A stretch of 64,000 bases of DNA, from assembly GCA_028819845.1 (NCBI GenBank), contig JAPPKS010000029.1, positions 199,332 through 263,331 on the forward strand. Reading direction: 5' to 3'. The stretch comes from Candidatus Poribacteria bacterium (GTDB taxonomy: Bacteria > Poribacteria > WGA-4E > PCPOR2b). Each line of letters begins with the position of its first letter. The stretch's first letter is position 1. This document shows positions 915 through 13,914 of this stretch, one piece after another. The notes beneath the pieces were generated by a model that saw nothing but the letters and a program-made list of their open reading frames with translations, was not told where the DNA came from and ran no database searches. Made by a program: the position numbers and the translations under genes.

Positions 915-2462
915 TTAATCTACATAGATTTCACGATTTGTGTCTTGGGCGAATATCCGATAGTCTTCGAGGTGCATATCGGGATCTCCCTTAAACCGAA
1001 TGGTCAGTTTCATTGATTCTTCAAGTTGGCGAACCTTGCCGGCTTTCTCATTGAGAAGATGCGACACAATCATCTCATTGGCCACGATTTCCAATCTTCT
1101 TTTTCGCGATTTCTGGTGGGCTTTCTTTACGGTTCGAAGTAAGCCGATTGTAACCGTGTCCACCGAAAACACAGTGCCGTGTCCTTCGCAGTAGGGGCAC
1201 GGCTCAGTGAGCAGCGTTGGCAGACTCGGTTTGGTTCTCTGCCGGGTCATTTCGACGAGGCCGATTTCAGAAAAGTGGAGGATATTCGTTCGGGCGCGGT
1301 CCTTTTTCAATGCCTGCTGCAACAGCTTGTACACCATCTTTCGGTGTTCGGACTGGTCCATATCAATAAAATCAATAACTATAATCCCGCCAATGTCTCT
1401 CAATCGGATTTGCCGAACCACCTCCTCAACGGCTTCAAGGTTTGCGCTCAGAATGGTATCATCCGGATCGCCTTTGCCGACGAATTTTCCCGTATTGACA
1501 TCAACGGAAAACATCGCCTCCGTTTTTTGGATGACGATATGTCCGCCGCATTTTAGCCAGATTTTCTCGGTTAATGCCTTCTTAAGCTCTTTTTCAATAC
1601 CGTAGGATTCAAAGATAGGGCTGGGTTTGTCGTAGAGTTTGACGCGTGATCGAAGTTCCGGCAGTGCGGAGGATAGGTAATTGAGGGTTTCTCGGTATTT
1701 TTCTTTGGAATCAATGAAGATTTGGCTGACTTCGTTCGTCAAATAGTCACGGATCATTCGGGCGGTGAAGCCGAGATCTTTATGCACCAAGTGGGGTGCG
1801 GACATTTTTTCAGACCGTTCGCAGATTCCCTTCCATTGATTAATCAAGTATCGAATTTCCGTCGCAAGTTCCTCTTCCGAAGCCCCTTCGGCCGCTGTGC
1901 GAATAATAAAGCCGCCTTCAACATCGGAACGCAGCGATTGCGCGATGTCTTTGAGGCGCTGCCGCTCTTCCGCGGATTCAATCCGCCGTGAAACGCCGAT
2001 GCTTGATGAAGTGGATAAATAAACAATGAATCTGCCCGGCAGGGTAACACAAGCGGTGACGCGCGGCCCTTTTGTTCCAATGGGTTCTTTTACGACTTGG
2101 ACGAGGATTTCCTGGTTCTTGCGAAGCAGATTGCTTATCGAATAGAAACTCCCCCTGCCGCCTCTTGGCGAATCTTTAGCGTTTGCGTCAAGACTCTCCT
2201 TCGTCGTATCCTTTTCTATGTCCTCCGCCTCGAAATCGTAATGAATATCCGAGGCATGGAGGAAGGCATGCCGATCCAATCCGATATCGACGAAGGCAAT
2301 TTGCATACCGGGGAGTACGTTTTCAACGCGCCCCTTATAGACATTTCCGAGAGACTGCTCATCATCCTTGCGTTCAATTTCAATCTCGCTAAGAACACGA
2401 TCTTCTACGATAGCGCATCTGGACTCATATTCATCGTCAGAGATTAAAATCTCTTTTTGCAT
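915..2462 (-). CDS. rng: Ribonuclease G/E family endoribonuclease
   Basis: This is an RNase E/G-type endonuclease of rRNA and mRNA processing, 515 residues from the chosen start, which is RNase G length without the RNase E scaffold tail. An S1-like domain lies near residues 35-120 (GNVYKGRVENVLPGMQIAFVD). The catalytic DNase I-like part carries SVDVNTGK and IDFIDM, which hold the two metal-binding aspartates. CPYCEGHG matches the Zn-link motif. An ATG twelve bases upstream (2474) forms part of the Shine-Dalgarno sequence itself (ATGGAGG), so the ATG at 2462, six bases after GGAGG, is the better start. The rng-rplU-rpmA order is widely conserved. Confidence 0.93.
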   Translation of the reverse strand: MQKEILISDDEYESRCAIVEDRVLSEIEIERKDDEQSLGNVYKGRVENVLPGMQIAFVDIGLDRHAFLHASDIHYDFEAEDIEKDTTKESLDANAKDSPRGGRGSFYSISNLLRKNQEILVQVVKEPIGTKGPRVTACVTLPGRFIVYLSTSSSIGVSRRIESAEERQRLKDIAQSLRSDVEGGFIIRTAAEGASEEELATEIRYLINQWKGICERSEKMSAPHLVHKDLGFTARMIRDYLTNEVSQIFIDSKEKYRETLNYLSSALPELRSRVKLYDKPSPIFESYGIEKELKKALTEKIWLKCGGHIVIQKTEAMFSVDVNTGKFVGKGDPDDTILSANLEAVEEVVRQIRLRDIGGIIVIDFIDMDQSEHRKMVYKLLQQALKKDRARTNILHFSEIGLVEMTRQRTKPSLPTLLTEPCPYCEGHGTVFSVDTVTIGLLRTVKKAHQKSRKRRLEIVANEMIVSHLLNEKAGKVRQLEESMKLTIRFKGDPDMHLEDYRIFAQDTNREIYVD

Positions 2463-3087
2463 TGTCGCCTCCATTCTTAAGTCGCTAATGCGTTGTCAGT
2501 CATATTTCGCGGTGCCACCGTGGCAACTGCTACTGTGCGCGGCGGCGCAAAAGCGGGAGAAGGTACCCGCTTTTATGTTCAATTTGACAATGCACTAGGA
2601 GGTTTTAAAGTAACAAAATTATGGAGGCAACGAGCCCAACATCAAGTTTAGAATTTGTTCAAGAATTATCTTCCTATTAAAGATATATGAACGCACACGT
2701 CCGCACTGGATTTCGCTGTGGCGCGGAATCTTCGACTCACGTAAATCCATTGCCTTGAATATCCATGCACAACCATGTGCTGTAAAATTCTCTTCATACA
2801 ATCATGTCTTTTTATCTTAAGTCAATATCCCGCTTGTATAACTCCCGATCTGACACCGATTCTGAATGTCAGAAATCCAAACGTCGGTAAGGATTACGGA
2901 TGTATTTGCTAAACCAACTTGTTCAAACTCGGCTTAAATACATCGCACATTCAGAATCTACACCTGGATTCAATGTTGTAAAACCCATGTGTCGGGATTT
3001 TCATACAACGGTGACATTGATTTTTTTTCATTGAATGAAAGGTTGTCGGCCGCTTTTATCCGCGTGACAACACTCGCTCAAAACCCA
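2463..3087. other. Intergenic, no gene recognised
   Basis: About 600 AT-rich bases between the start of rng and the end of the PorX-like gene. Short ORFs here lack a plausible ribosome binding site and have no family signature. It should hold the rng promoter, but no convincing -35/-10 pair was found. Confidence 0.5.
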
Positions 3088-4656
3088 TTAAGTTCCTTTG
3101 CGCGGCGTCATTGTGATTACCGGAATGATTAACTCGCTAGGTGAAATCCCTCCGTGCTGGAAGCCGCCGCGAAACTGTCGCGTATATTCATGATACTGAT
3201 TTGGATAGACAAAATAGTAATCTTCCTTCGTTATAATATAGTTTTTACTTGAACCTTCAGCGGGTAACCTATATTCATTCGGATGCGCGATGTGTATGGC
3301 TTGATCTCTATTGCACCCGAGGTTCGTACCGACTTTGAAACGAAGGCTTGTGGACGTTTCGCGATTTCCAAGCGCTTTTGTAGGCCGATTACAAAGAACG
3401 GAACCGTGGTCAGAGGTTAGGACGACGGTGGCGTCTCGGGTTGCAATAATCTTCAAGACCTCAAAGAGCGCGGAATGGGCGAACCATGATTTTGCCAGTG
3501 AACGAAAGGCAGATTCATCCGGTGCTATTTGCTGAAGTACATTTGACTGTGAACGTTGATGGGTTAATATATCAATGAAGTTGACGACCAGAGCAGATAA
3601 ACTGATTTGGTCGAAAGACGAAACTTGACGTAAAAACTCGTTGCCTCCCTTGGCGTCGAATATCTTGAAATACCTAATTCCTGGTTTAAGGTTCAGCCCG
3701 GCTCTTTGCAGCTTTTGTTGAAGGAGCTGTTTTTCATACCGATTCGTACTGGTTTCGTCTTCTGAGTTTTCCTGCCAATATTGCGGGAATTTCTTTGCAA
3801 TCTCTTGAGGAAATAAACCGCTAAATAGTGCGTTGCGAGAGTAGAGCGTTGCACTAGGCAAGATTGAGAAGTAAAAATCCCGATTGGTATAAAAATAGGG
3901 CCGAATCAGCGGCTCAATCGCCATCCAATGGTCGAGCCTGAGACAATCAACAACAATAAAATAGGTGGGTCGTTTTTCGCGTAGATGCGGGATGACAAAA
4001 TTATCTAACACATCCACAGATAAAATTGGCGAGTTTTCCCCTTTTAACCAGCGGGTATAGTCTCGCGAAACATAGTCTGAAAATGAAGCATTACACTCTT
4101 TTTTTAGCTCTACGTGAGTTTCTTCAAGGCCTGTTTGTCCCAATTGATCGAATTCGAGATCCCATTCGACCAATTTCAGATAAATTTCAATCCACTTGCG
4201 CCAATCCGGGGCGGTCTCTTTTATGTGTCGAATCTGATCGAAATCGTGCGTGTAGTTGCGAGGTACCTGTCCTTCTGCAATCTTTGTCTGGTCTAAAACA
4301 CGCTTCAATGTAAGAGCGACCTGCGCTGCCCCGATTGGTTTCACCAGAAAATCGCTAATCCGTTTCCCCAACGCCTCATTAACTACCTGATCATCATGGC
4401 ATTGTGTTAGCATGACCACGGGCAACGTCGGGTCAATCGCGCGGATGCGGTCCAATGCTGCTAAGCCGTCCTGCCCAGGCATCATCTGGTCAAGTAAAAC
4501 CACATCATACCGCTGATTATTGAGCAGTGAAATTGCATCGTCCCCGTTGGACACAGAGGTGACATCATAAGACTTTTCATTCAGAAAAAGGATGTGGGGT
4601 TTCAGGGCATCAATTTCATCATCAACCCATAAAATTTTGTGAGCGATATTTTGCAT
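3088..4656 (-). CDS. porX: PorX-like response regulator with PglZ domain
   Basis: 522 residues from ATG 4656, chosen over 4680 because GGGGTGAG precedes it. Residues 1-125 are a CheY-like receiver: acidic pocket VDDE at 11-14, phosphoacceptor D56 in LLDQMMPG, conserved lysine K106. Residues from about 205 form a PglZ/alkaline-phosphatase-superfamily domain, with metal-site aspartate D237 in VVDCLRLDHW, a candidate nucleophile T270 in LPSATLYSRN, and TSDHGSVLCNRPTKA near the C-terminus. The architecture and length match PorX, which in Bacteroidota regulates the type IX secretion system and whose PglZ domain is a zinc phosphodiesterase. The kinase just upstream is the likely partner (13 bases to its stop from the in-frame ATG at 4680). 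The function here is inferred from architecture. Confidence 0.88.
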   Translation of the reverse strand: MQNIAHKILWVDDEIDALKPHILFLNEKSYDVTSVSNGDDAISLLNNQRYDVVLLDQMMPGQDGLAALDRIRAIDPTLPVVMLTQCHDDQVVNEALGKRISDFLVKPIGAAQVALTLKRVLDQTKIAEGQVPRNYTHDFDQIRHIKETAPDWRKWIEIYLKLVEWDLEFDQLGQTGLEETHVELKKECNASFSDYVSRDYTRWLKGENSPILSVDVLDNFVIPHLREKRPTYFIVVDCLRLDHWMAIEPLIRPYFYTNRDFYFSILPSATLYSRNALFSGLFPQEIAKKFPQYWQENSEDETSTNRYEKQLLQQKLQRAGLNLKPGIRYFKIFDAKGGNEFLRQVSSFDQISLSALVVNFIDILTHQRSQSNVLQQIAPDESAFRSLAKSWFAHSALFEVLKIIATRDATVVLTSDHGSVLCNRPTKALGNRETSTSLRFKVGTNLGCNRDQAIHIAHPNEYRLPAEGSSKNYIITKEDYYFVYPNQYHEYTRQFRGGFQHGGISPSELIIPVITMTPRKGT

Positions 4657-4693
4657 TAACAACTCACCCCTTTTGCCCATTTATCCTTCAAAT

Positions 4694-6223
4694 TTAGGGA
4701 TGCCTCAACTCGATTTCTTTTCGTTTCTCGCCGGATATTGTCCCGATTGGCAGTACAATTTCGAAGCTTGTCCCATTAGGACCTGTGTCGACTAACCGGA
4801 TTTTCCCATGATGGTGCGTCTCGACAATACGCTTGACAAGTGTTAATCCAAGCCCCCAACCGTGTTTCTTGGTTGTTACGCCGGGGTGAAAAATTTTTCG
4901 GCGGTCTTTCCGCACAATCCCCTTACCGTTGTCCGTGTATCGAATAATGATACGACGGTTCTTCTCATCAAATCTCGGATCGATTTCGATTAAACCGTTC
5001 GGTTTGTCGAGGGCGTCGAGCGAATTGCGAATCAGGTTCTCAAAAACCCATTGCATAAGTTCTGCATTGGCGAAGACGTATGGAAGTTCGCCAGCCGTGA
5101 CCCTAATGTCAACCGATTTGTTGCGATTGGGCAACCGTTTTTGATAGTAGGAAACGACATCGCCAATCACTTCGTTGACGTTGACTTCCGTTTTTTGCGG
5201 TTCCGATCCAATCTCCCCAAAGCGTGCCGTGATTTTCTGCAACCGGACGATATCATTATGCACATTTTCATAGATGCCGCTAACCGTAGCGTCGTCCACT
5301 TCACGATTTCGAGTGGTCAACAACTCCAACCAGCCCATCAATGAGGATATTGGCGTTCCCAGTTGGTGTGCGGTTTCTTTGGCGAGACCGCCCCAGAGCG
5401 CCGCCTGTTCACTAAATCTTATACGCCGATAAGTCAGAAATCCAACACCCAAGAAGGTTGCAAACACAGTTATTAAGACTATCGGCATAATCATAATGCC
5501 AAGATAACGCGTCGCTTCGTAATAAAAATAGCCCTTACGCAAGTCAGGTGTGGTCTGCAGCGGCACCTCGCGTCCCAATACTTTGGAGCTCTGCACCAGT
5601 TTTTCAGCCCGTGCCAACTGTTCCGGTGTAGCATGCTTGGCAGTAACTAGGTCGCCGCCCCAGATTCGCCACATCTGCGGTTTCCCGTTCAAATCCGTCA
5701 CGACAAAGGGAACCTGTTCTATCGCTGTTACATCGGCGTCGCCATGAAAAAAATAGGCAGAAAGTTCGCGATTTTCTAAGCTGTATTGAATGGACACCGG
5801 TCCATTCTTCCTCTCCATCCGGTCCAATGCGTCTTTGAGTTTGACTTGCTCGACGGGAGATAACGCAATTGACGGCTCGGTGTTGACTTTTTGGTCAATT
5901 GCTTCATCAACGCCCTTGGCAATGACAACTTGCCCGTTATCTGCATCTGTAATGATGAACGATAGACGGCTTACCGTCAATAACTGCTTAACTATTTGCG
6001 TCAATCCATCTTGAAGTTCTCTGTCCTTCACCTCTGGTAATGTCGCCGCAAGGTGTGCCAACGGTCCGACCTGTTCATCCAACGCCCGATCTAGCTGGAG
6101 AATCTGTCTGGTATAATACACGAAGGCGAGCGACAGAATGAGTAGCCCAACGATAAAGTACGCTAACAGGAATCTCGTCGTGGCGTACCCAGTCGGCACA
6201 ATTCTTTTGCGCTTGAACAGCAT
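4694..6223 (-). CDS. PorY-like membrane sensor histidine kinase
   Basis: 509 residues. A transmembrane helix at about 17-38, an extracytoplasmic sensor region at about 40-240 and a second helix at about 242-265 precede the kinase core. The phosphoacceptor is H286 in AKETAHQLGTP, a variant H-box shared with PorY-type kinases. The ATPase domain has N400 (ENLIRNSLDAL), TDNGKGI and GWGLGLTLVKRIVE. No HAMP domain is evident between the second helix and the H-box. AGAGGA precedes the ATG. It is the first gene of a pair with the PorX-like regulator and its presumed phosphodonor. The stimulus cannot be told from the sequence. Confidence 0.9.
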   Translation of the reverse strand: MLFKRKRIVPTGYATTRFLLAYFIVGLLILSLAFVYYTRQILQLDRALDEQVGPLAHLAATLPEVKDRELQDGLTQIVKQLLTVSRLSFIITDADNGQVVIAKGVDEAIDQKVNTEPSIALSPVEQVKLKDALDRMERKNGPVSIQYSLENRELSAYFFHGDADVTAIEQVPFVVTDLNGKPQMWRIWGGDLVTAKHATPEQLARAEKLVQSSKVLGREVPLQTTPDLRKGYFYYEATRYLGIMIMPIVLITVFATFLGVGFLTYRRIRFSEQAALWGGLAKETAHQLGTPISSLMGWLELLTTRNREVDDATVSGIYENVHNDIVRLQKITARFGEIGSEPQKTEVNVNEVIGDVVSYYQKRLPNRNKSVDIRVTAGELPYVFANAELMQWVFENLIRNSLDALDKPNGLIEIDPRFDEKNRRIIIRYTDNGKGIVRKDRRKIFHPGVTTKKHGWGLGLTLVKRIVETHHHGKIRLVDTGPNGTSFEIVLPIGTISGEKRKEIELRHP

Positions 6224-6552
6224 TAATCTTCCTCTATCCGACGAACAAAAACTCCCAAGTTATTCTATCAGAAAACCCGTTTTAAGTCAAGAATTGTTTA
6301 GTCGGGATAGGGAGTGGAATCATGCCGTGATTTTGATTTGACAGACGCAACTGTGCGGTTAGGCGGCACCAGTATATGCACTCACCCGAACGAATTGTGA
6401 GCGCGATAGTGTTCACAAGTTTGGGGATTGGCACACCGTGTCCTGACGCCAAGATTGAGCGGACGAGTGAATTTTTTTTCCGATGTGAATTCAATTCCTA
6501 GCTATGTATTATTGACGCAATTAATCCCTGTACGGTTTATCAATTTTTGGTC
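6224..6552. other. Intergenic, no gene recognised
   Basis: About 330 bases between the kinase start and the end of the vWA gene, all neighbours on the minus strand. No convincing gene, terminator or promoter was recognised. Confidence 0.4.
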
Positions 6553-8103
6553 TCAAGGCATTTCGAACGTTCTGCGTAGAATGCTTTGGTGGCCGAGGTC
6601 ATTTTCGAGATGGTAGATAACCGTATGAGTGCCGGCAATTGCGTCGAGTTGGCTAACGTTGATTGTTGGGCTAAGTGTGATAACCTCAGCGTCGTCACTG
6701 GAGATTGTCTCTTGGTGAGAATATGGGCCGGAGCATCTTTCTCCAAGGGGATTTAGGATTTTCCACGAGACCTTAATCCATTTTGGGCGCGGATTGAGCT
6801 TGATATAAACCACTAATTTATCCGCGAGCGAATTCTCATTAAATCCGAGCACACCAAATTCAGAGAGCATTTTGGCTGTCATAGTTATCGGCGGAACGTA
6901 CTCCAAATAGCCCTTGCCGGGAATTGCTCGCCAGACCCCCTGCGTGCCCCAAGCAATCTGTTTAACAGGCAAATAGTCCAGGCCGAGGACGTTCACACGT
7001 ACGCGTTCGCGCTGCAACGTTTCGATGACCTGATCTAGGCTATACTCGGACTTGCCGTCGTAATCTGCATCATGGAATGCAGCGTCACTCGCGAATACGA
7101 AGAACCGCTGCCGTCCCGTGCGGAATTTTATCCTGTCCACCGCTGTCATTAGCCCGTCTAAACCGGATTCGAGCAGATCGCCCCCGCCCTCAAATTCAAT
7201 CTCGTGAAGCCAAGTTTTAAACTTACTGCGTTCGGCCGTAACACCGCGCGCATTTGGTTTTTCTTCCGCGGCATCGGAAAAAGTGACGAGGCCAACCGCT
7301 GCGTTGTGTCCCGTTCGCGCTAAATGATCCAGAAATTCATCGGTATAAGCCCGAATTCCACGAACATTGTCTTTCATGCTCCCCGTCTTGTCGACGATAA
7401 ATACGATATCAACTTCGGGTGTGGTTGCCGCCTCCGCAATGTCTAGTGCGAGATCGGTCATCAGCTTGATGTAATTTCCTTGCGGTCGCGATGCCCCGCC
7501 GCTGCCGTAAGAGTTTCCTACAGGCGCCCCGCGCAGGACTGCGCCGCGCGTGTGCCAATACCGCATCTCGGCTGGATTAACCTCCAGAGAATTTGCTTTC
7601 AAACCCCTTCCCGACTCACTTATGCTGATATTTTCGTTTTCGGTTGGAGCGGTAACATCATCCGAACGCGTCGGTTGTAATGGCACAGCTGCGGCAGCAA
7701 TTGGTTGAGGTATCGGATAGGCAGAATTTGGCAAGCGGGAATGAGGATTCAGTCTAATCTGGTTAGATTTTGTTGACCGTTCCCCAATTTTGGAAGTTGT
7801 CTCGCGGTGCGCTGGGTTGTCGAATGAGGGTTCAACCTGCCATTCTGCATCAGAAGTGGGCGTTGGCTTGGGCGGATCAAACTTCTTTGCCTCTTCCGTG
7901 GGCTTAGCAGGAGGCGGCGGCTTTTGAGGCTTACTAGGACGGTCTTCTATACGGGGTAAATACGAGATATCAATCGCAATCTCATCATGAACGGGTCGAG
8001 TCTGATAACGTTCATGCCAAAGCCGGGATAAGATAAGCAGGATAAGGAGGTGAACCATGAGCGAGTACATTAGAAAGGAGTAAGAATGTCTGCGCGGCTG
8101 CAC
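6553..8103 (-). CDS. Membrane-anchored vWA-domain protein with proline-rich stalk
   Basis: 516 residues from a GTG at 8103, preceded five bases earlier by AGGTG. A TTG ten codons upstream (8133) lacks a ribosome binding site. A single helix at about 10-28 (FLMYSLMVHLLILLILS) is followed by IDISYLP and a proline/lysine-rich stretch near 57-82, an arrangement like the N-terminus of TonB, which suggests an inner-membrane anchor with a periplasmic stalk. Residues about 230-420 form a von Willebrand A domain with a MIDAS of the DxTxS type (D238, T240, S242 in VDKTGSM) and FASDAAFHD further on. The C-terminal 100 residues are probably a beta-sandwich. No TonB C-terminal domain is present. It lies between a PorX/PorY-like pair and two exported HEAT proteins; the function is unknown. 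Confidence 0.8.
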   Translation of the reverse strand: MQPRRHSYSFLMYSLMVHLLILLILSRLWHERYQTRPVHDEIAIDISYLPRIEDRPSKPQKPPPPAKPTEEAKKFDPPKPTPTSDAEWQVEPSFDNPAHRETTSKIGERSTKSNQIRLNPHSRLPNSAYPIPQPIAAAAVPLQPTRSDDVTAPTENENISISESGRGLKANSLEVNPAEMRYWHTRGAVLRGAPVGNSYGSGGASRPQGNYIKLMTDLALDIAEAATTPEVDIVFIVDKTGSMKDNVRGIRAYTDEFLDHLARTGHNAAVGLVTFSDAAEEKPNARGVTAERSKFKTWLHEIEFEGGGDLLESGLDGLMTAVDRIKFRTGRQRFFVFASDAAFHDADYDGKSEYSLDQVIETLQRERVRVNVLGLDYLPVKQIAWGTQGVWRAIPGKGYLEYVPPITMTAKMLSEFGVLGFNENSLADKLVVYIKLNPRPKWIKVSWKILNPLGERCSGPYSHQETISSDDAEVITLSPTINVSQLDAIAGTHTVIYHLENDLGHQSILRRTFEMP

Positions 8104-8247
8104 GGTATCACCTGCTTTGAAAGTGGAAGGCAAATAGTAGGTAAGATTAAGTCATCCCCTCCACAAAATTCACCGACGAGCGTCAATCGCAATCTGTATT
8201 ATCGGGCGGCAAACCTTAATTCATGGCTAGTTAGTTTGAAATTCCTG

Positions 8248-9999
8248 TCATTGGCTGAGGAGTCGTTGGAATTCGAGATTGTTGCGAATTCCGTCTAACG
8301 CCCTATCAGTCTTTGCCGTTTCCTGATAGGATTTATCAAGCGAAAATGCAGTTTCAAATGCATCCAGCGCTTTTTCGAGGTTATCGGTTTTTACGTACGT
8401 GAGACCCAAATGATAATGGGCAGACGCCAAATAATCACCTAACGCCACAGCCTTTTCCAAGGCGGCCGCCGCTTCCCTATACTCGCCGCGTTTGTAGAGC
8501 ACCCATCCAAGTGTGTCGTGAAATGTCGCGTTATTTGGTTCGCTCAGTAACGTTTTCCTTGCGATGGATTCCGCTTTCTCCAAATGTACACCTGCATCCG
8601 CGAATGACCAAGCTAACGAGTCGAGACTAGCGATTGCGTACTCACGTACGTGGGCGTCAGGATCTTTTTCAGCCAATCGTTCAAGTCCCGGAAGTGCTCG
8701 AATGTCTCCGAGATCGCCAAGCGCGAACGCAGCGCTGCGGCGGACATTTTCAGCCTCCGAATTGAGCGCCGCAATGAGCGGCTTTACGGCTTGTCGGCTG
8801 CCAACGCGGCCTAATGCAATCACGGCAGTACTGCGAATGAAATCTTTTTCGTCTTTTAGCATCGCAATTAACGGTTGCACTGCGCGTTTGTCTTCAAGTG
8901 CGCCCAAGGCAACGACAGCACTCACACGAACGGAACTATTTTCGTCCTGGAGGGCATCAATGAGCGGCGCCACTGCCCGTTGCTCGCCAAGCCGTCCCAA
9001 TATGCTCGCTATTTCAGCACGGATAGGATTATTTTCAACTTCGAAAAGTGTAAGCAATGGCTCCACCGCTGCGGGACCAAGCTTCTCCAACGCTGAAGCC
9101 GCAGTGGCGCGCACCAGAAGATTTTCGTTGTTCAGGACCGGAATCAACAGCGCGATCGCCGGTTCACCGAGCGCTACCAGTGCCTCCGCAGCTTTGTCGC
9201 GGATTGAAGGCTCATCGTTAAGTGCGGCAACCAAGGGAATTCCTGCTCGCATATCGCCAAGCTGCCCTAAAACAGAAGTTGCAGCCTCACGAACCAACGG
9301 GCTCTCATCTTTTAACGCCTCAATTAGCGGCTCGACAGCGCGTTTATCGCCAAGTTGCCCAAGTGCTAAGGCAGCAAATGGGCGGGTATAGCTGTCCTGA
9401 TTGATGGCAGTAAGCAGCGGCTCCACTGCTTGTTTATCCCCAAGATGCCCTAACGCAACCGCAGCCGAAAGGCGGACATCATTCTTCTTGTCCATAAGCG
9501 CCGCGATTAACGGTTCTGTGGCGCGCGCGTCCCCAAGTTGGCCCAACGCGAAGGCAGTGCTGCTGCGTACTCTACTGTTTTTGTCCTTCAGTACATCAAG
9601 CAGCGGTTCAACGACTCGTCTGTCGCCAAGTTGCCCAAGTGCAATGGCAGCACTTTCGCGGACATTACGCCTCTCTTTCTTGTCCTTAAGGGCAGCTAGC
9701 AACGGCTCGACTGCCTGTATGTCGCCAAGATGACCCAACGCAACCGCAGCACTCTCGCGGACATCACGCTTCTCGCTTTTGTCATTGAGGCGATCCAACA
9801 GTGGAACTACTGCTCGCGAATCCCCAAGCCTACCCAATGCTTCCGACGCTTCTATGCGAGCATCCTTATCTGCACTCATCAGTTTTTGGGAATACTTGGC
9901 GAATTCATCCAGTTTTTCCTCGGGCGATGCAGGTTGAAAAAATCCAAGTGACATCGCGGCAATGAGGATTAAAACAGAAATCGACTTGTAGTTTTTCAT
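8248..9999 (-). CDS. Exported HEAT-repeat/TPR protein
   Basis: 583 residues with a signal peptide (SVLILIAAMSLGFFQPASP). About thirteen PBS-lyase-type HEAT repeats of roughly 31 residues, each with a version of ALGQLGDKRAVEPLI, run from about 40 to 450, plus a capping half repeat. The C-terminal 120 residues hold TPR-like helices (DTLGWVLYKRGEYREAAAAL, SAHYHLGLTYVKTDNLEKAL). Such proteins are binding scaffolds, and no catalytic residues are visible. The gene is six bases downstream of a larger paralogue with the same architecture, so the pair is a tandem duplication. Cytoplasmic HEAT proteins of this type can be phycobilin lyases, but an exported one with TPRs is unlikely to be. Confidence 0.85.
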   Translation of the reverse strand: MKNYKSISVLILIAAMSLGFFQPASPEEKLDEFAKYSQKLMSADKDARIEASEALGRLGDSRAVVPLLDRLNDKSEKRDVRESAAVALGHLGDIQAVEPLLAALKDKKERRNVRESAAIALGQLGDRRVVEPLLDVLKDKNSRVRSSTAFALGQLGDARATEPLIAALMDKKNDVRLSAAVALGHLGDKQAVEPLLTAINQDSYTRPFAALALGQLGDKRAVEPLIEALKDESPLVREAATSVLGQLGDMRAGIPLVAALNDEPSIRDKAAEALVALGEPAIALLIPVLNNENLLVRATAASALEKLGPAAVEPLLTLFEVENNPIRAEIASILGRLGEQRAVAPLIDALQDENSSVRVSAVVALGALEDKRAVQPLIAMLKDEKDFIRSTAVIALGRVGSRQAVKPLIAALNSEAENVRRSAAFALGDLGDIRALPGLERLAEKDPDAHVREYAIASLDSLAWSFADAGVHLEKAESIARKTLLSEPNNATFHDTLGWVLYKRGEYREAAAALEKAVALGDYLASAHYHLGLTYVKTDNLEKALDAFETAFSLDKSYQETAKTDRALDGIRNNLEFQRLLSQ

Positions 10000-10005
10000 G
10001 TTATT

Positions 10006-12789
10006 TTACTCCACCTTTCCTCGCAATTCCGACACCTTCAATTGTTCAACTCGTTCAAGGTATGTATCGTCCAACTCGAAAGCAGTGTCGAATTTCTCCT
10101 GCGCTTTCGCTTGCTGATTGTCCTTAAGGTATGCCAATCCCAAATGATAATGCGCCGAGGCTGATCCAAATCGTCCTTGGATTGCTTTCTCGAAGGCGGA
10201 AATCGCGTCTGTAAACTTGCCCTGTTTGTAGAGCACCCAACCGAGAGTCTCATAAGAGGTTTGGGCATCGACGCGAAGCGCTATCGCATTCTTCACGAGA
10301 GATTCTGCTTCATCCAATCTGTTACCCGCGTTGGCAAAAGACCACGCGCGAATATTCTGCAAACTAGCTGTCGCAGAATTGCAGATTTGTTCATCAGCCT
10401 CTCTCTTTATGAGTTTTTCCAAGTCAAGAACCGCCCGTTCATCGCGAAGTTGCCCCAATGATTTCGCAGCAATACGGCGTACCCTTCTGCTTTCATCTCT
10501 CAGTGCAGCAATCAATGGCGCAACGGCTCGACCATCTCCCATACGCCCTAAAACAGAACCTGCCATACAGCGCATCGCTTCATCGTCGTCCTTTAGCGCA
10601 TTTAACAACAATCCCATGCCGTGTTTGTCCCCAAGCTGTCCCAACCCGATGGCGGCAATATATTTTGCTTCATCATCTTTGAGTGCGTTAAGCAGCGGTT
10701 CAATTGCCCGCTTGTCGCCCAAAAGCGCTAACCCAACCGCGGCCATAACCCGTACTTCATCATCTTTGAGCGCATTGAGTAGCGGTTCAACCGCCCGCTC
10801 GTCACCTAGCTGTCCTAGCGCTATGGCAGCATTTTTGCGAACGTAACTGTAGCTCTCTCCTGTGTCGCTATTGTAGTAACTATTTTTGTTTCTGAGAACC
10901 GCAATCAGAGGTTGCACCGCTCGATTGTCATCAAGTTGGCCTAAGGTAGACACAAGCATATTTCTGAAATTTCCTTCTTCCGAATTGCGGATCTGGCCGC
11001 TATTCAAGACGTTGATGAGCGGCGTTGTTGCCCGTTTGTCTCCAAGCACTCCCAACGCAACGGCGGCATTCCAACGAACCTGCCAATTTTCATCATTAAG
11101 TGCCGCGGCTAACGGTTTCATCGCGCGTCGGACGCCGAGATACCCTAATGCAAAAGTAGCTTCAAGGCGGAATTGCGAATTCTCGTCTTCAAGCGCATCA
11201 ACGAGTGATTGCACCGAGCGCTTGTCTCCTAGCCGACCCAGTGCATAAGCAGCGCCGCGGCGGACGATTTTATCCTGGCTTTCGTCCTTTAACACGGCAA
11301 TCAGTGGCTTTGCCGCCGGTTTGCCACACTGCCCTAAAGCACGGGCAGCGTGCCAACAAAACCCCCAATCTGTATATTTGAGCGCGGCAATCAGTGGCTC
11401 TATCGCGCGCTTATCACCAAGACGGCCTAACGCTTTGGCAGCTTCAAAGCGAACTGCCCAATCTTGATTCTCAAGTGCGGCAATCAGTGGTTCTACTGCA
11501 CGCCCGTCGCCAAGCTGGCCTAACGCTTTTGCGGCTTGCTGATGGACCTTCGCATCCCCGTCCTGGAGCGAAACGAGGAGAGGTTCGACGGCCCGCCTGT
11601 CCCCAAGTGTACCTAGGGCGCGTGCGGCGTTCGCGCGGCCTCCCCAATTCTTATCTTGAAGTGCAACAATCAACTCATCTACCGCTCGATTATCATTTAG
11701 CTGTTCCAACGCAGCTACAGCGCTGTTACGAATGGAACCCTGCTCGTCCTTCAGCGCGGCGATTAGGATATCAACCGCTCGCTTATCACCAAGCTGTCCC
11801 AACGCGGCTAGGGCATTATTGCGGACTACACCATCACTATCGTTGGAAAGTACGATGAGCGGTTCTACTGCTTGCGGGTCTCCAATTCGACCGAGTATTC
11901 GCGCCGCGTCGGCGCGGACAGAACTATTTCCACGCTTGAGTATAGACAGTAAGGGAACTACTGCCGGTTCACCTATCCGCCCTAGCGTCGAGACAGCGGC
12001 GGCGTGAACCAAAACATCCGTCTCTCCAAGCGCAGAAATCAGCGCCGCAACCGCGGGTTCGCCAAGCAGCTCCAATGCGTTCGCGGCTCTTTCGCGTACA
12101 GAAATTTCATTGTCGCGAAAAGCGGCGATTAGCGGTTCTACTGCTCGCGTGTCGTCAAGTTTTCCAAGCACCGATGCAGCAGCGTCGCGGACAAATGGAG
12201 TTCCATCTCTGAGTGCTGCAATCAGCGGTTCAACCGCCCGCTTATCGTTAAGCTGCCCCAACGCAAGCGCAGCAAAAGGGCGCGAAAGGTCATCTTCCTC
12301 AATCACTGCAAGCAGCGCCTCTGATGCCCGCGCATCGCCAAGATGGCCCAACGCAATTGCAGCACTATTTCGCACGGTGCGCTGGTCATCTTTCAATGCC
12401 GCAATTAAGGGTTCTAACGATTGCGGCCCGCCAAGTTGCCCCAATGCAAATGCGGCGCTGCTCCTTACACTGTCACCCGTAACTTTCAAAACCGCAATCA
12501 ACGGTTCCACTGCACGGTCGTCACCCAATTTACCCAAAGCAATCGCGGCACTCTCACGGACAGTACAATCTTCCGCCTGATCCTGGAGGACATCCACTAG
12601 CGGCATAACCGCCCGCACATCGCCATATAGTCCCAATTCCGCCGCAGCTTCCTTGCGGAGAAGTTTATCCTCTCCTTCTAACTGCTTGATGTAAACTGCT
12701 ACTTCATCTTTGTGGTTATGGCTATCACAGCCGCATAACGCTGCAAAACCAATCGCAATGAAGACAGACATCGTCCTGTGTTTTCGCAT
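10006..12789 (-). CDS. HEAT-repeat/TPR lipoprotein
   Basis: 927 residues. The signal sequence ends in a lipobox (AALCGC), which predicts a lipid-anchored protein. About twenty-four HEAT repeats with the ALGxLGDxRAVEPLI consensus follow, then a cap and two TPR-like helical pairs at the C-terminus (YETLGWVLYKQGKFTDAISAF; SAHYHLGLAYLKDNQQAKAQ). AAGGAA lies just before the ATG. The TPR tail is clearly homologous to that of the downstream paralogue, while the repeat number is nearly double, as expected when HEAT arrays grow by internal duplication. Repeat 15 (ALGQCGKPAAKPLI) and a segment near 590-620 with extra residues break the regular spacing. Role inferred: a large envelope scaffold working with its neighbours. 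Confidence 0.85.
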   Translation of the reverse strand: MRKHRTMSVFIAIGFAALCGCDSHNHKDEVAVYIKQLEGEDKLLRKEAAAELGLYGDVRAVMPLVDVLQDQAEDCTVRESAAIALGKLGDDRAVEPLIAVLKVTGDSVRSSAAFALGQLGGPQSLEPLIAALKDDQRTVRNSAAIALGHLGDARASEALLAVIEEDDLSRPFAALALGQLNDKRAVEPLIAALRDGTPFVRDAAASVLGKLDDTRAVEPLIAAFRDNEISVRERAANALELLGEPAVAALISALGETDVLVHAAAVSTLGRIGEPAVVPLLSILKRGNSSVRADAARILGRIGDPQAVEPLIVLSNDSDGVVRNNALAALGQLGDKRAVDILIAALKDEQGSIRNSAVAALEQLNDNRAVDELIVALQDKNWGGRANAARALGTLGDRRAVEPLLVSLQDGDAKVHQQAAKALGQLGDGRAVEPLIAALENQDWAVRFEAAKALGRLGDKRAIEPLIAALKYTDWGFCWHAARALGQCGKPAAKPLIAVLKDESQDKIVRRGAAYALGRLGDKRSVQSLVDALEDENSQFRLEATFALGYLGVRRAMKPLAAALNDENWQVRWNAAVALGVLGDKRATTPLINVLNSGQIRNSEEGNFRNMLVSTLGQLDDNRAVQPLIAVLRNKNSYYNSDTGESYSYVRKNAAIALGQLGDERAVEPLLNALKDDEVRVMAAVGLALLGDKRAIEPLLNALKDDEAKYIAAIGLGQLGDKHGMGLLLNALKDDDEAMRCMAGSVLGRMGDGRAVAPLIAALRDESRRVRRIAAKSLGQLRDERAVLDLEKLIKREADEQICNSATASLQNIRAWSFANAGNRLDEAESLVKNAIALRVDAQTSYETLGWVLYKQGKFTDAISAFEKAIQGRFGSASAHYHLGLAYLKDNQQAKAQEKFDTAFELDDTYLERVEQLKVSELRGKVE

Positions 12790-12882: not shown

Positions 12883-13914
12883 CTAATGCATATGAAATTC
12901 CAAAACGTCTCCATCGTGGACAATGTCATCACGGCTAACGGTCTGTCCGTCATGCCAGTTGACTCCCCAGATTCGCGCGTACTTAAAGTTCTCCGCAAAA
13001 TCTTTGTGCAGCGACATGGCAGCATCAATTACGGTGCCATAAATTGGAAGCACAATTGGATCTTCGGGGTCAACTGGTTTTCCCGGCGATTTGGTGTAAA
13101 CGCGTAAAATCTCCATTTGCTCATACATCGCTTTCTGCAACACATCAATTCCATCGCCCGTTATCGCAGAAAGGGGAAAGATTGGAAAATCGTCGGTGTA
13201 AAACTCGCGCAGAATCTCCAAGCGATCGGTTGCATCTACATTGTCCATCTGGTTCGCAGCGATTAATGCACGTTTAGTAAATTTGGCGGAGAAGGAGCCC
13301 ATACTGTTGACATCATTACTCGATATCTCGTCGTTGTCCAGCGGGTTAGGGTAAATTTGACCGGCAATTTGAATATTTGCTTGCATCAATACAGACTTTA
13401 CACTTTCAACCTGGTCGAGTACATCATCGCTTGCAAGGCTTAGCACTAGCAACAACAGATCGGCATTTCTTACGATGTCGAACACCCAAGGTTGCACGAA
13501 ATCCTCCGTGATTGGCGGCATGTCAATCAGTTGAAACTGAATATTTTCATACTCTAGCATTCCGACGGCTGGTTCAAACGTCGTATGGGGAGATGGTGAG
13601 ACAACCGGATTAGCGTTTGTGAACCTAGCGACGATTTGTGACTTTCCAACGTTTGGTGCGCCGATCAGGGCAATTTGGCCTGCTCCGTGTTTTGGAACAT
13701 GATAGCTGTGTCCTTTCTTTGCCTGTTTTTTTCCTTCCCCCTTTTTAACCTTTGTAATTCGCCGACGGAGATCTACACGAACCTTCTCTGTACCCTTGTG
13801 TTTCGGAGTAATGCGCAGCATCTCCTCTAACAGTGGGAGCCGTTCATCATCAGTCCTTGCTGCCTCAAGTTGGTGCTTGAGTTTATAGTATTCGGGAGGG
13901 AGGTTTGCTGGCAT
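12883..13914 (-). CDS. DRG/Obg-like GTPase with TGS domain
   Basis: 343 residues. A helical N-terminus (1-75, with a lysine-rich segment at 54-68) precedes a G domain with G1 GAPNVGKS (85-92) and a C-terminal TGS domain from about 285. This order resembles DRG and Obg-type translation-associated GTPases. Two nucleotide motifs deviate: G3 reads DMPP (131-134) rather than DxPG, and G4 reads NQMD (221-224) rather than NKxD. Either GTP binding is altered or this is a divergent subfamily. No good ribosome binding site precedes the ATG. It is the most upstream gene of the minus-strand block but may be unrelated to the HEAT genes. Confidence 0.8.
   Translation of the reverse strand: MPANLPPEYYKLKHQLEAARTDDERLPLLEEMLRITPKHKGTEKVRVDLRRRITKVKKGEGKKQAKKGHSYHVPKHGAGQIALIGAPNVGKSQIVARFTNANPVVSPSPHTTFEPAVGMLEYENIQFQLIDMPPITEDFVQPWVFDIVRNADLLLLVLSLASDDVLDQVESVKSVLMQANIQIAGQIYPNPLDNDEISSNDVNSMGSFSAKFTKRALIAANQMDNVDATDRLEILREFYTDDFPIFPLSAITGDGIDVLQKAMYEQMEILRVYTKSPGKPVDPEDPIVLPIYGTVIDAAMSLHKDFAENFKYARIWGVNWHDGQTVSRDDIVHDGDVLEFHMH

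Follow-up and report, generated by a model that had tools for sequence, protein, structure and literature searches.

A vWA protein of TonB/TolA-like build in Candidatus Poribacteria, probably a force transducer, and the HEAT-TPR and PorX/PorY genes beside it

On contig C30 of a Candidatus Poribacteria draft genome (G000), a gene for a membrane-anchored vWA protein lies between two genes for HEAT-TPR repeat proteins and a PorX/PorY-like pair. The first-pass annotation proposed that the products of these genes form one new envelope complex, which raises the question of whether they belong together or are neighbors by chance. We compared the 64,000-nucleotide stretch of DNA that carries the locus (the window) with other Poribacteria genomes. 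The obtained results do not support the new complex, because the HEAT-TPR and PorX/PorY genes adjoin the vWA gene only in this genome, and a false complex is thereby kept from being recorded on one chance gene arrangement. The vWA protein itself is a genuine phylum-wide Poribacteria protein of TonB/TolA-like build.

The open reading frames of vWA, HT1, and HT2 were found to be intact and co-directional, all on the minus strand, as the first-pass annotation had stated (Table 1). In the direction of transcription, the gene order is TGS GTPase, HT1, HT2, vWA, PorY, PorX, and RNase G. The two solenoid genes had been described as the next two after vWA, one of them coding for a lipoprotein; their HEAT and TPR repeats, a lipobox-like motif, and a signal-peptide-like start were indeed recovered, but both genes precede vWA on the coding strand. 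For the vWA gene, the GTG codon at 8103 is, judged from the sequence context, a better start than TTG 8133 because it follows a good ribosome-binding site (AGGTGAT) and agrees with the aligned starts of the orthologs. The gap between vWA and PorY is probably a boundary of two transcription units. A sigma-70-like promoter with a 10/12 match and a TG ahead of the second hexamer was found in this gap; such sites are no commoner in the region than expected by chance (11 counted versus 9.7 expected), and the site is suggestive only.

Table 1. Features of the vWA locus in window coordinates
Feature	Coordinates	Strand	Basis or remark
TGS-domain GTPase (Obg/DRG-like)	12883..13914	-	domain search and neighbor comparison
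HT1, HEAT repeats and C-terminal TPRs, 927 aa	10006..12789	-	ORF and domain search
HT2, exported HEAT-repeat protein with C-terminal TPRs, 583 aa	8248..9999	-	ORF and domain search
vWA force-transducer-like protein, 516 aa	6553..8103	-	GTG start at 8103
vWA SxxxH codons, residues 14-18 (S14 to H18)	8050..8064	-	ortholog alignment
vWA-to-PorY gap, 329 bp	6224..6552	-	promoter-like site 6290..6262
PorY-like sensor histidine kinase	4694..6223	-	domain search and synteny
PorX ortholog, receiver and PglZ domain	3088..4680	-	NF052313
RNase E/G family protein (RNase G)	915..2474	-	domain search and synteny
Ribosomal protein L21- and L27-like ORFs, past RNase G			by sequence reading only

We assessed the proposed linkage on 31 vWA loci from Poribacteria genomes and on further loci from whole genomes, about 40 in all; the 31 close vWA relatives were all Ca. 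Poribacteria MAGs, as recovered by a contig scan that detects close relatives only. No HEAT-TPR gene lies beside vWA in the about 40 loci of other genomes, and neither PorX nor PorY was present in their fetched flanks. PorY, PorX, and RNase G formed a single block in 19 out of 19 relatives examined, with RNase G as the constant downstream neighbor of PorX and with vWA never within the block, and the upstream flanks of PorY in other genomes hold unrelated genes. The distances can be large: in G005, assembled as a single contig, 2.7 Mb separate vWA (764 kb) from PorX (3,510 kb), and in G019 they are at 2,945 and 4,064 kb. A conserved vWA-HEAT-TPR-PorXY operon was rejected on these about 40 vWA and 19 PorX loci, among which the proposed set as a whole is scattered. 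The gene neighborhoods point to three independent units that are side by side only in this genome, namely the HEAT-TPR pair, the vWA gene, and the PorY-PorX-RNase G block.

A narrower version of the first-pass proposal would confine the complex to this lineage: vWA, HT1, and HT2 would assemble in the periplasm, the two solenoids serving as partners of the vWA head, and PorXY might or might not control them. The three genes are co-directional, with 6 bp between HT1 and HT2 and 144 bp between HT2 and vWA, and a periplasmic location is predicted for each of the three products; moreover, exported TPR proteins are true vWA neighbors in other families (see below), which makes a partner of the solenoid type plausible in principle. 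Against this stand the missing linkage in all other genomes examined, the constant association of PorXY with RNase G rather than with vWA, and the abundance of TPR proteins, of which one TPR query gave 39 matches in this genome; because of this abundance, a chance adjacency of HEAT-TPR and vWA genes is likely. We consider such a complex unlikely.

The history of the HEAT-TPR pair points the same way. The HEAT repeats of the two proteins were detected far above chance (E=4e-94 and 6e-139), and likewise their C-terminal TPRs. HT1 carries a lipobox-like LCGC motif with Cys21 and an Asp at +2, a position at which Asp acts as an inner-membrane retention signal in enterics, and HT2 has a signal-peptide-like N-terminus. 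HT1 and HT2 align over long stretches with about 41-53% identity, which identifies them as tandem duplicates (paralogs). Close orthologs of the pair were not found in sister genera; homologs with 40-45% identity occur in another family (G011, G014) as single genes distant from vWA, which counts against such a complex. The TGS GTPase is located just upstream of vWA in 26 of 31 related loci, and the same arrangement is obtained here once HT1-HT2 are set aside. HT1-HT2 therefore look inserted between the TGS GTPase and vWA, and the compared loci mark them as lineage-specific neighbors of vWA without conserved adjacency. The TGS GTPase was also considered as a functional partner of vWA and rejected, as it is a housekeeping-type cytoplasmic GTPase whose order is more likely inherited.

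The presence of a PorX/PorY-like pair next to vWA was confirmed, and the PorX assignment is strong: the protein combines receiver and PglZ domains and scores 631 bits against NF052313 (cut-off 300). PorX is known as a response regulator of the type IX secretion system (T9SS). PorX exceeds the curated cut-off in 24 of 25 genomes. The PorY-PorX-RNase G block (window 915-6223, minus strand) is conserved across Poribacteria families, and many relatives encode a second, more divergent PorX elsewhere in their genomes. Separately, we observed a SprA_N-like frame of ~1,950-2,270 aa (about 2,200), one per genome in all 25 Poribacteria tested and in none of the 14 controls. The SprA_N match is above the Pfam cut-off in 11 of 25 genomes. 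The copy of this genome (G000:C12; L168:3439-10005) has 2188 aa and, with 160 bits against SprA (TIGR04189; E=5e-47), falls short of the cut-off of 200, and six SprA-like proteins are about 53-65% identical. A previous study found Por sorting domains in Poribacteria, yet no Por secretion genes (PMC3909097, 2014). Given these sorting domains and the wide occurrence of PorX, the SprA-like frame may be the missing Por translocon.

The vWA protein comprises a helix at residues 7-33, a strand-like segment at 42-49, a stalk at 68-208, a vWA domain at 208-390, and a beta-sandwich at 430-515. The vWA domain was detected far above chance (VWA_4, E=6e-13) and includes the MIDAS-like motif DKTGSM; Pfam searches of the whole protein matched vWA-type domains only and gave no TonB_C match. 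The AF2 monomer shows confident helix, vWA, and beta-sandwich regions, with pLDDT <50 throughout the Pro-rich stalk, which is predicted to be disordered over its ~140 residues; a KP pair at 79-80 of the stalk is conserved. The MIDAS-type head on a proline-rich stalk, predicted to be periplasmic, was thus upheld by domain search, alignment, and AF2. Fold and sequence comparisons of the vWA domain lead to integrin beta-I domains. Orthologs were detected in 56 of 59 order-level genomes (E below 1e-95); outside the order they occur in other classes and across the remainder of the phylum, with E 1e-67 to 1e-130. A viral-contig search found no relatives.

The most telling feature is the N-terminal helix. 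An alignment of 30-32 orthologs, the most distant at ~40% identity, leaves only S14 and H18 invariant in helix 7-33, all other columns being variable, and the pair was kept in all five full-length orthologs examined from outside the order. The invariance of S14 and H18 makes the TonB-like anchor stronger than the first-pass annotation had claimed. Nine distant vWA paralogs have SxxxH in seven cases and AxxxH in two. The position and spacing of S14/H18 are those of TonB and TolA, as in E. coli. In the TonB/TolA helix, the pair binds the ExbB/TolQ motors (PMC12204202); a literature search on the motif spelled SxxxH gave no match. In the orthologs the L of the SHLS motif is replaced by M/I/V and its second S (the H+11 column) is variable, neither being conserved. 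Columns 42, 44, 46, and 49 are alternately hydrophobic (0.90-1.00), like a motor box, and the AF2 monomer shows no strand there. The earlier remark that no described system with this set was known is out of date, as a 2025 study defined a class of vWA force transducers with TonB/TolA topology, in which the vWA protein has a motor-binding helix of the TonB/TolA type (PMC12204202).

Could the helix instead be a plain anchor? The vWA protein might be an ordinary membrane-anchored binding or chaperone protein (BatA/YfbK-like), in which SxxxH is structural and contacts no motor. vWA proteins are common in this genome (22 matches, many Bat-like by layout), and no motor gene is adjacent. However, a structural role is not obvious for a His and a Ser that never vary within a hydrophobic helix whose other positions do, and the pair, placed and spaced as in TonB/TolA, recurs in divergent vWA paralogs but is absent, together with the Pro-rich stalk, from the Bat-like vWA proteins of this genome that were examined. 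We regard a plain anchor as quite improbable. The genome encodes at least six vWA proteins with an SxxxH-type helix (the protein of the locus and five more). Two 407-aa SxxxH-anchored vWA genes on different contigs (G000:C21:187000-191000 and G000:C10:348000-352500) have nearly identical N-termini, which suggests recent duplication or mobility.

The putative motor genes are encoded elsewhere. An ExbB-ExbD-ExbD set is present on another contig (G000:C20:44000-56000), unlinked to vWA, and each of the 25 genomes searched has ExbD. Beside vWA or its orthologs no motor gene was detected, and a vWA-motor operon was rejected, since nine ExbD loci (this genome and eight relatives) hold a large lipoprotein, ExbB, and ExbD without any vWA gene. 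The conserved ~1,100-aa lipoprotein-like frame precedes ExbB-ExbD-ExbD in this genome and the eight relatives; its copy in this genome has no Pfam or NCBIfam match. Another region (G000:C18:10000-22000) has a TolQ-like gene, ahead of which lie genes for a TPR protein of 1088 aa and a protein of 572 aa; the gene after it encodes a 299-aa protein with an N-terminal hydrophobic helix. No ExbD domain was found beside this TolQ-like gene, and the locus is a possible second motor set. In a second, transpore-type vWA family, the vWA protein replaces ExbD/TolR inside the TolQ pentamer, lacks the SHLS residues, and has a conserved helix Asp and a tolQ neighbor (PMC12204202); although this TolQ-like gene without an ExbD match might seem to invite such an arrangement, it is highly improbable for our protein, in which S and H are invariant, the membrane helix has no Asp, and no tolQ is adjacent.

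A better-supported partner candidate than HT1/HT2 emerged from the sister families. It is an exported TPR protein of ~750 aa with YbgF-like repeats, encoded in this genome at G000:C35:252391-254613, unlinked to vWA, and detected in 56 of the 59 genomes at order level as well as in 24 of 26 others. In 45 of 47 genomes of families f2-f4, its gene is located within 5.3 kb downstream of vWA on the same strand, and in the other two the genes are on different contigs. In three genomes from f2 and f4, no more than 22-49 bp separate the vWA match from the TPR match, and in one genome (G012) the two frames overlap by 4 bp. Within the window's own family, the TPR gene is unlinked to vWA except in one genome (8.5 kb), and it is also unlinked in other classes. 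Since vWA and the TPR gene each come near to being part of the phylum's core, their co-occurrence says little, whereas tight adjacency in separate families is informative. Three order-level genomes without vWA also have no TPR gene; this co-absence was rejected as independent evidence, as the genes are neighbors in the families of these genomes and one assembly gap could remove both. Three other genomes (G077, G080, and G083) have the TPR gene and no vWA ortholog. The TPR protein beside vWA in G060 differs from the linked TPR protein, the best match to which is on another contig of that genome. From this gene order, we infer that the exported TPR protein is the most likely long-term partner of vWA.

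Taken together, the vWA protein is probably a Poribacteria member of the vWA force transducer class. The membrane helix would dock via S14/H18 on an ExbB/TolQ-type proton-driven 5:2 motor, for which the ExbB-ExbD-ExbD set is the candidate, and the strand at 42-49 after the helix would contact the ExbD dimer. The ~140-residue stalk would span the periplasm and pass a pulling force to the vWA head, which would grip a protein ligand in a metal-dependent manner, either at the cell wall or at the outer membrane, most likely with the exported TPR protein as partner. This assignment would bring a class for which no phenotype has been reported into a phylum with many sponge symbionts, where almost every genome carries the gene along with several paralogs; S14 and H18 are its candidate key residues and the TPR protein its candidate partner. 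A wider picture, speculative and on balance doubtful, is a phylum-wide Tol-Pal-like force system with vWA in place of TolA, the long TPR protein in place of CpoB, and the vWA paralogs sharing one ExbB-ExbD-ExbD motor, to which the window's lineage would have added the HEAT-TPR pair, an auxiliary ligand of the vWA head or a scaffold for it.

Several known systems share parts of this build. In the Agl-Glt gliding machinery of Myxococcus (CglB/CglD), a vWA adhesin cooperates with a motor of the ExbBD type. As an adhesin, CglB sits on the surface of the outer membrane, whereas the vWA protein described here is predicted to be anchored in the inner membrane; the CglD match to the vWA stretch is weak (16 bits versus a cut-off of 400). 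The BatA-BatE proteins (Bacteroides aerotolerance) likewise link membrane vWA proteins with TPR proteins and differ in the helix and stalk noted above; the NCBIfam BatC match to our TPR protein is far below the cut-off. CpoB/YbgF of Tol-Pal resembles the linked exported TPR protein, which exceeds the cut-off of the YbgF domain (126-134 bits for TIGR02795 versus 90); this is a lead rather than a claim of membership, as TPR repeats cross-match easily and the TPR protein is much longer, with many repeats. With TonB/TolA, the vWA protein shares the SxxxH motor-binding helix, the periplasmic stalk, and a single globular C-terminal head. The head is a vWA domain instead of a TonB_C or TolA domain, and this genome encodes two separate TonB_C proteins on other contigs.

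The closest counterparts are the vWA force transducers of PMC12204202, the main text of which does not mention Poribacteria. Genes of this class in the PVC group often adjoin tolQ/tolR, and a TPR gene, tolQ, and a pair of tolR genes are frequent neighbors but not required (PMC12204202). In contrast, the motor genes are unlinked here; the linker is longer (~140 versus ~100 residues), an extra C-terminal beta-sandwich is present, each genome has several paralogs, and conservation of SHLS does not extend to its L and second S. A motor box like theirs may follow the helix here, as the alternating hydrophobic columns suggest. Both groups share the Ser/His helix, the Pro-rich disordered linker, a frequent TPR neighbor (here in sister families f2-f4 only), and a C-terminal vWA domain in place of the TonB/TolA domain.
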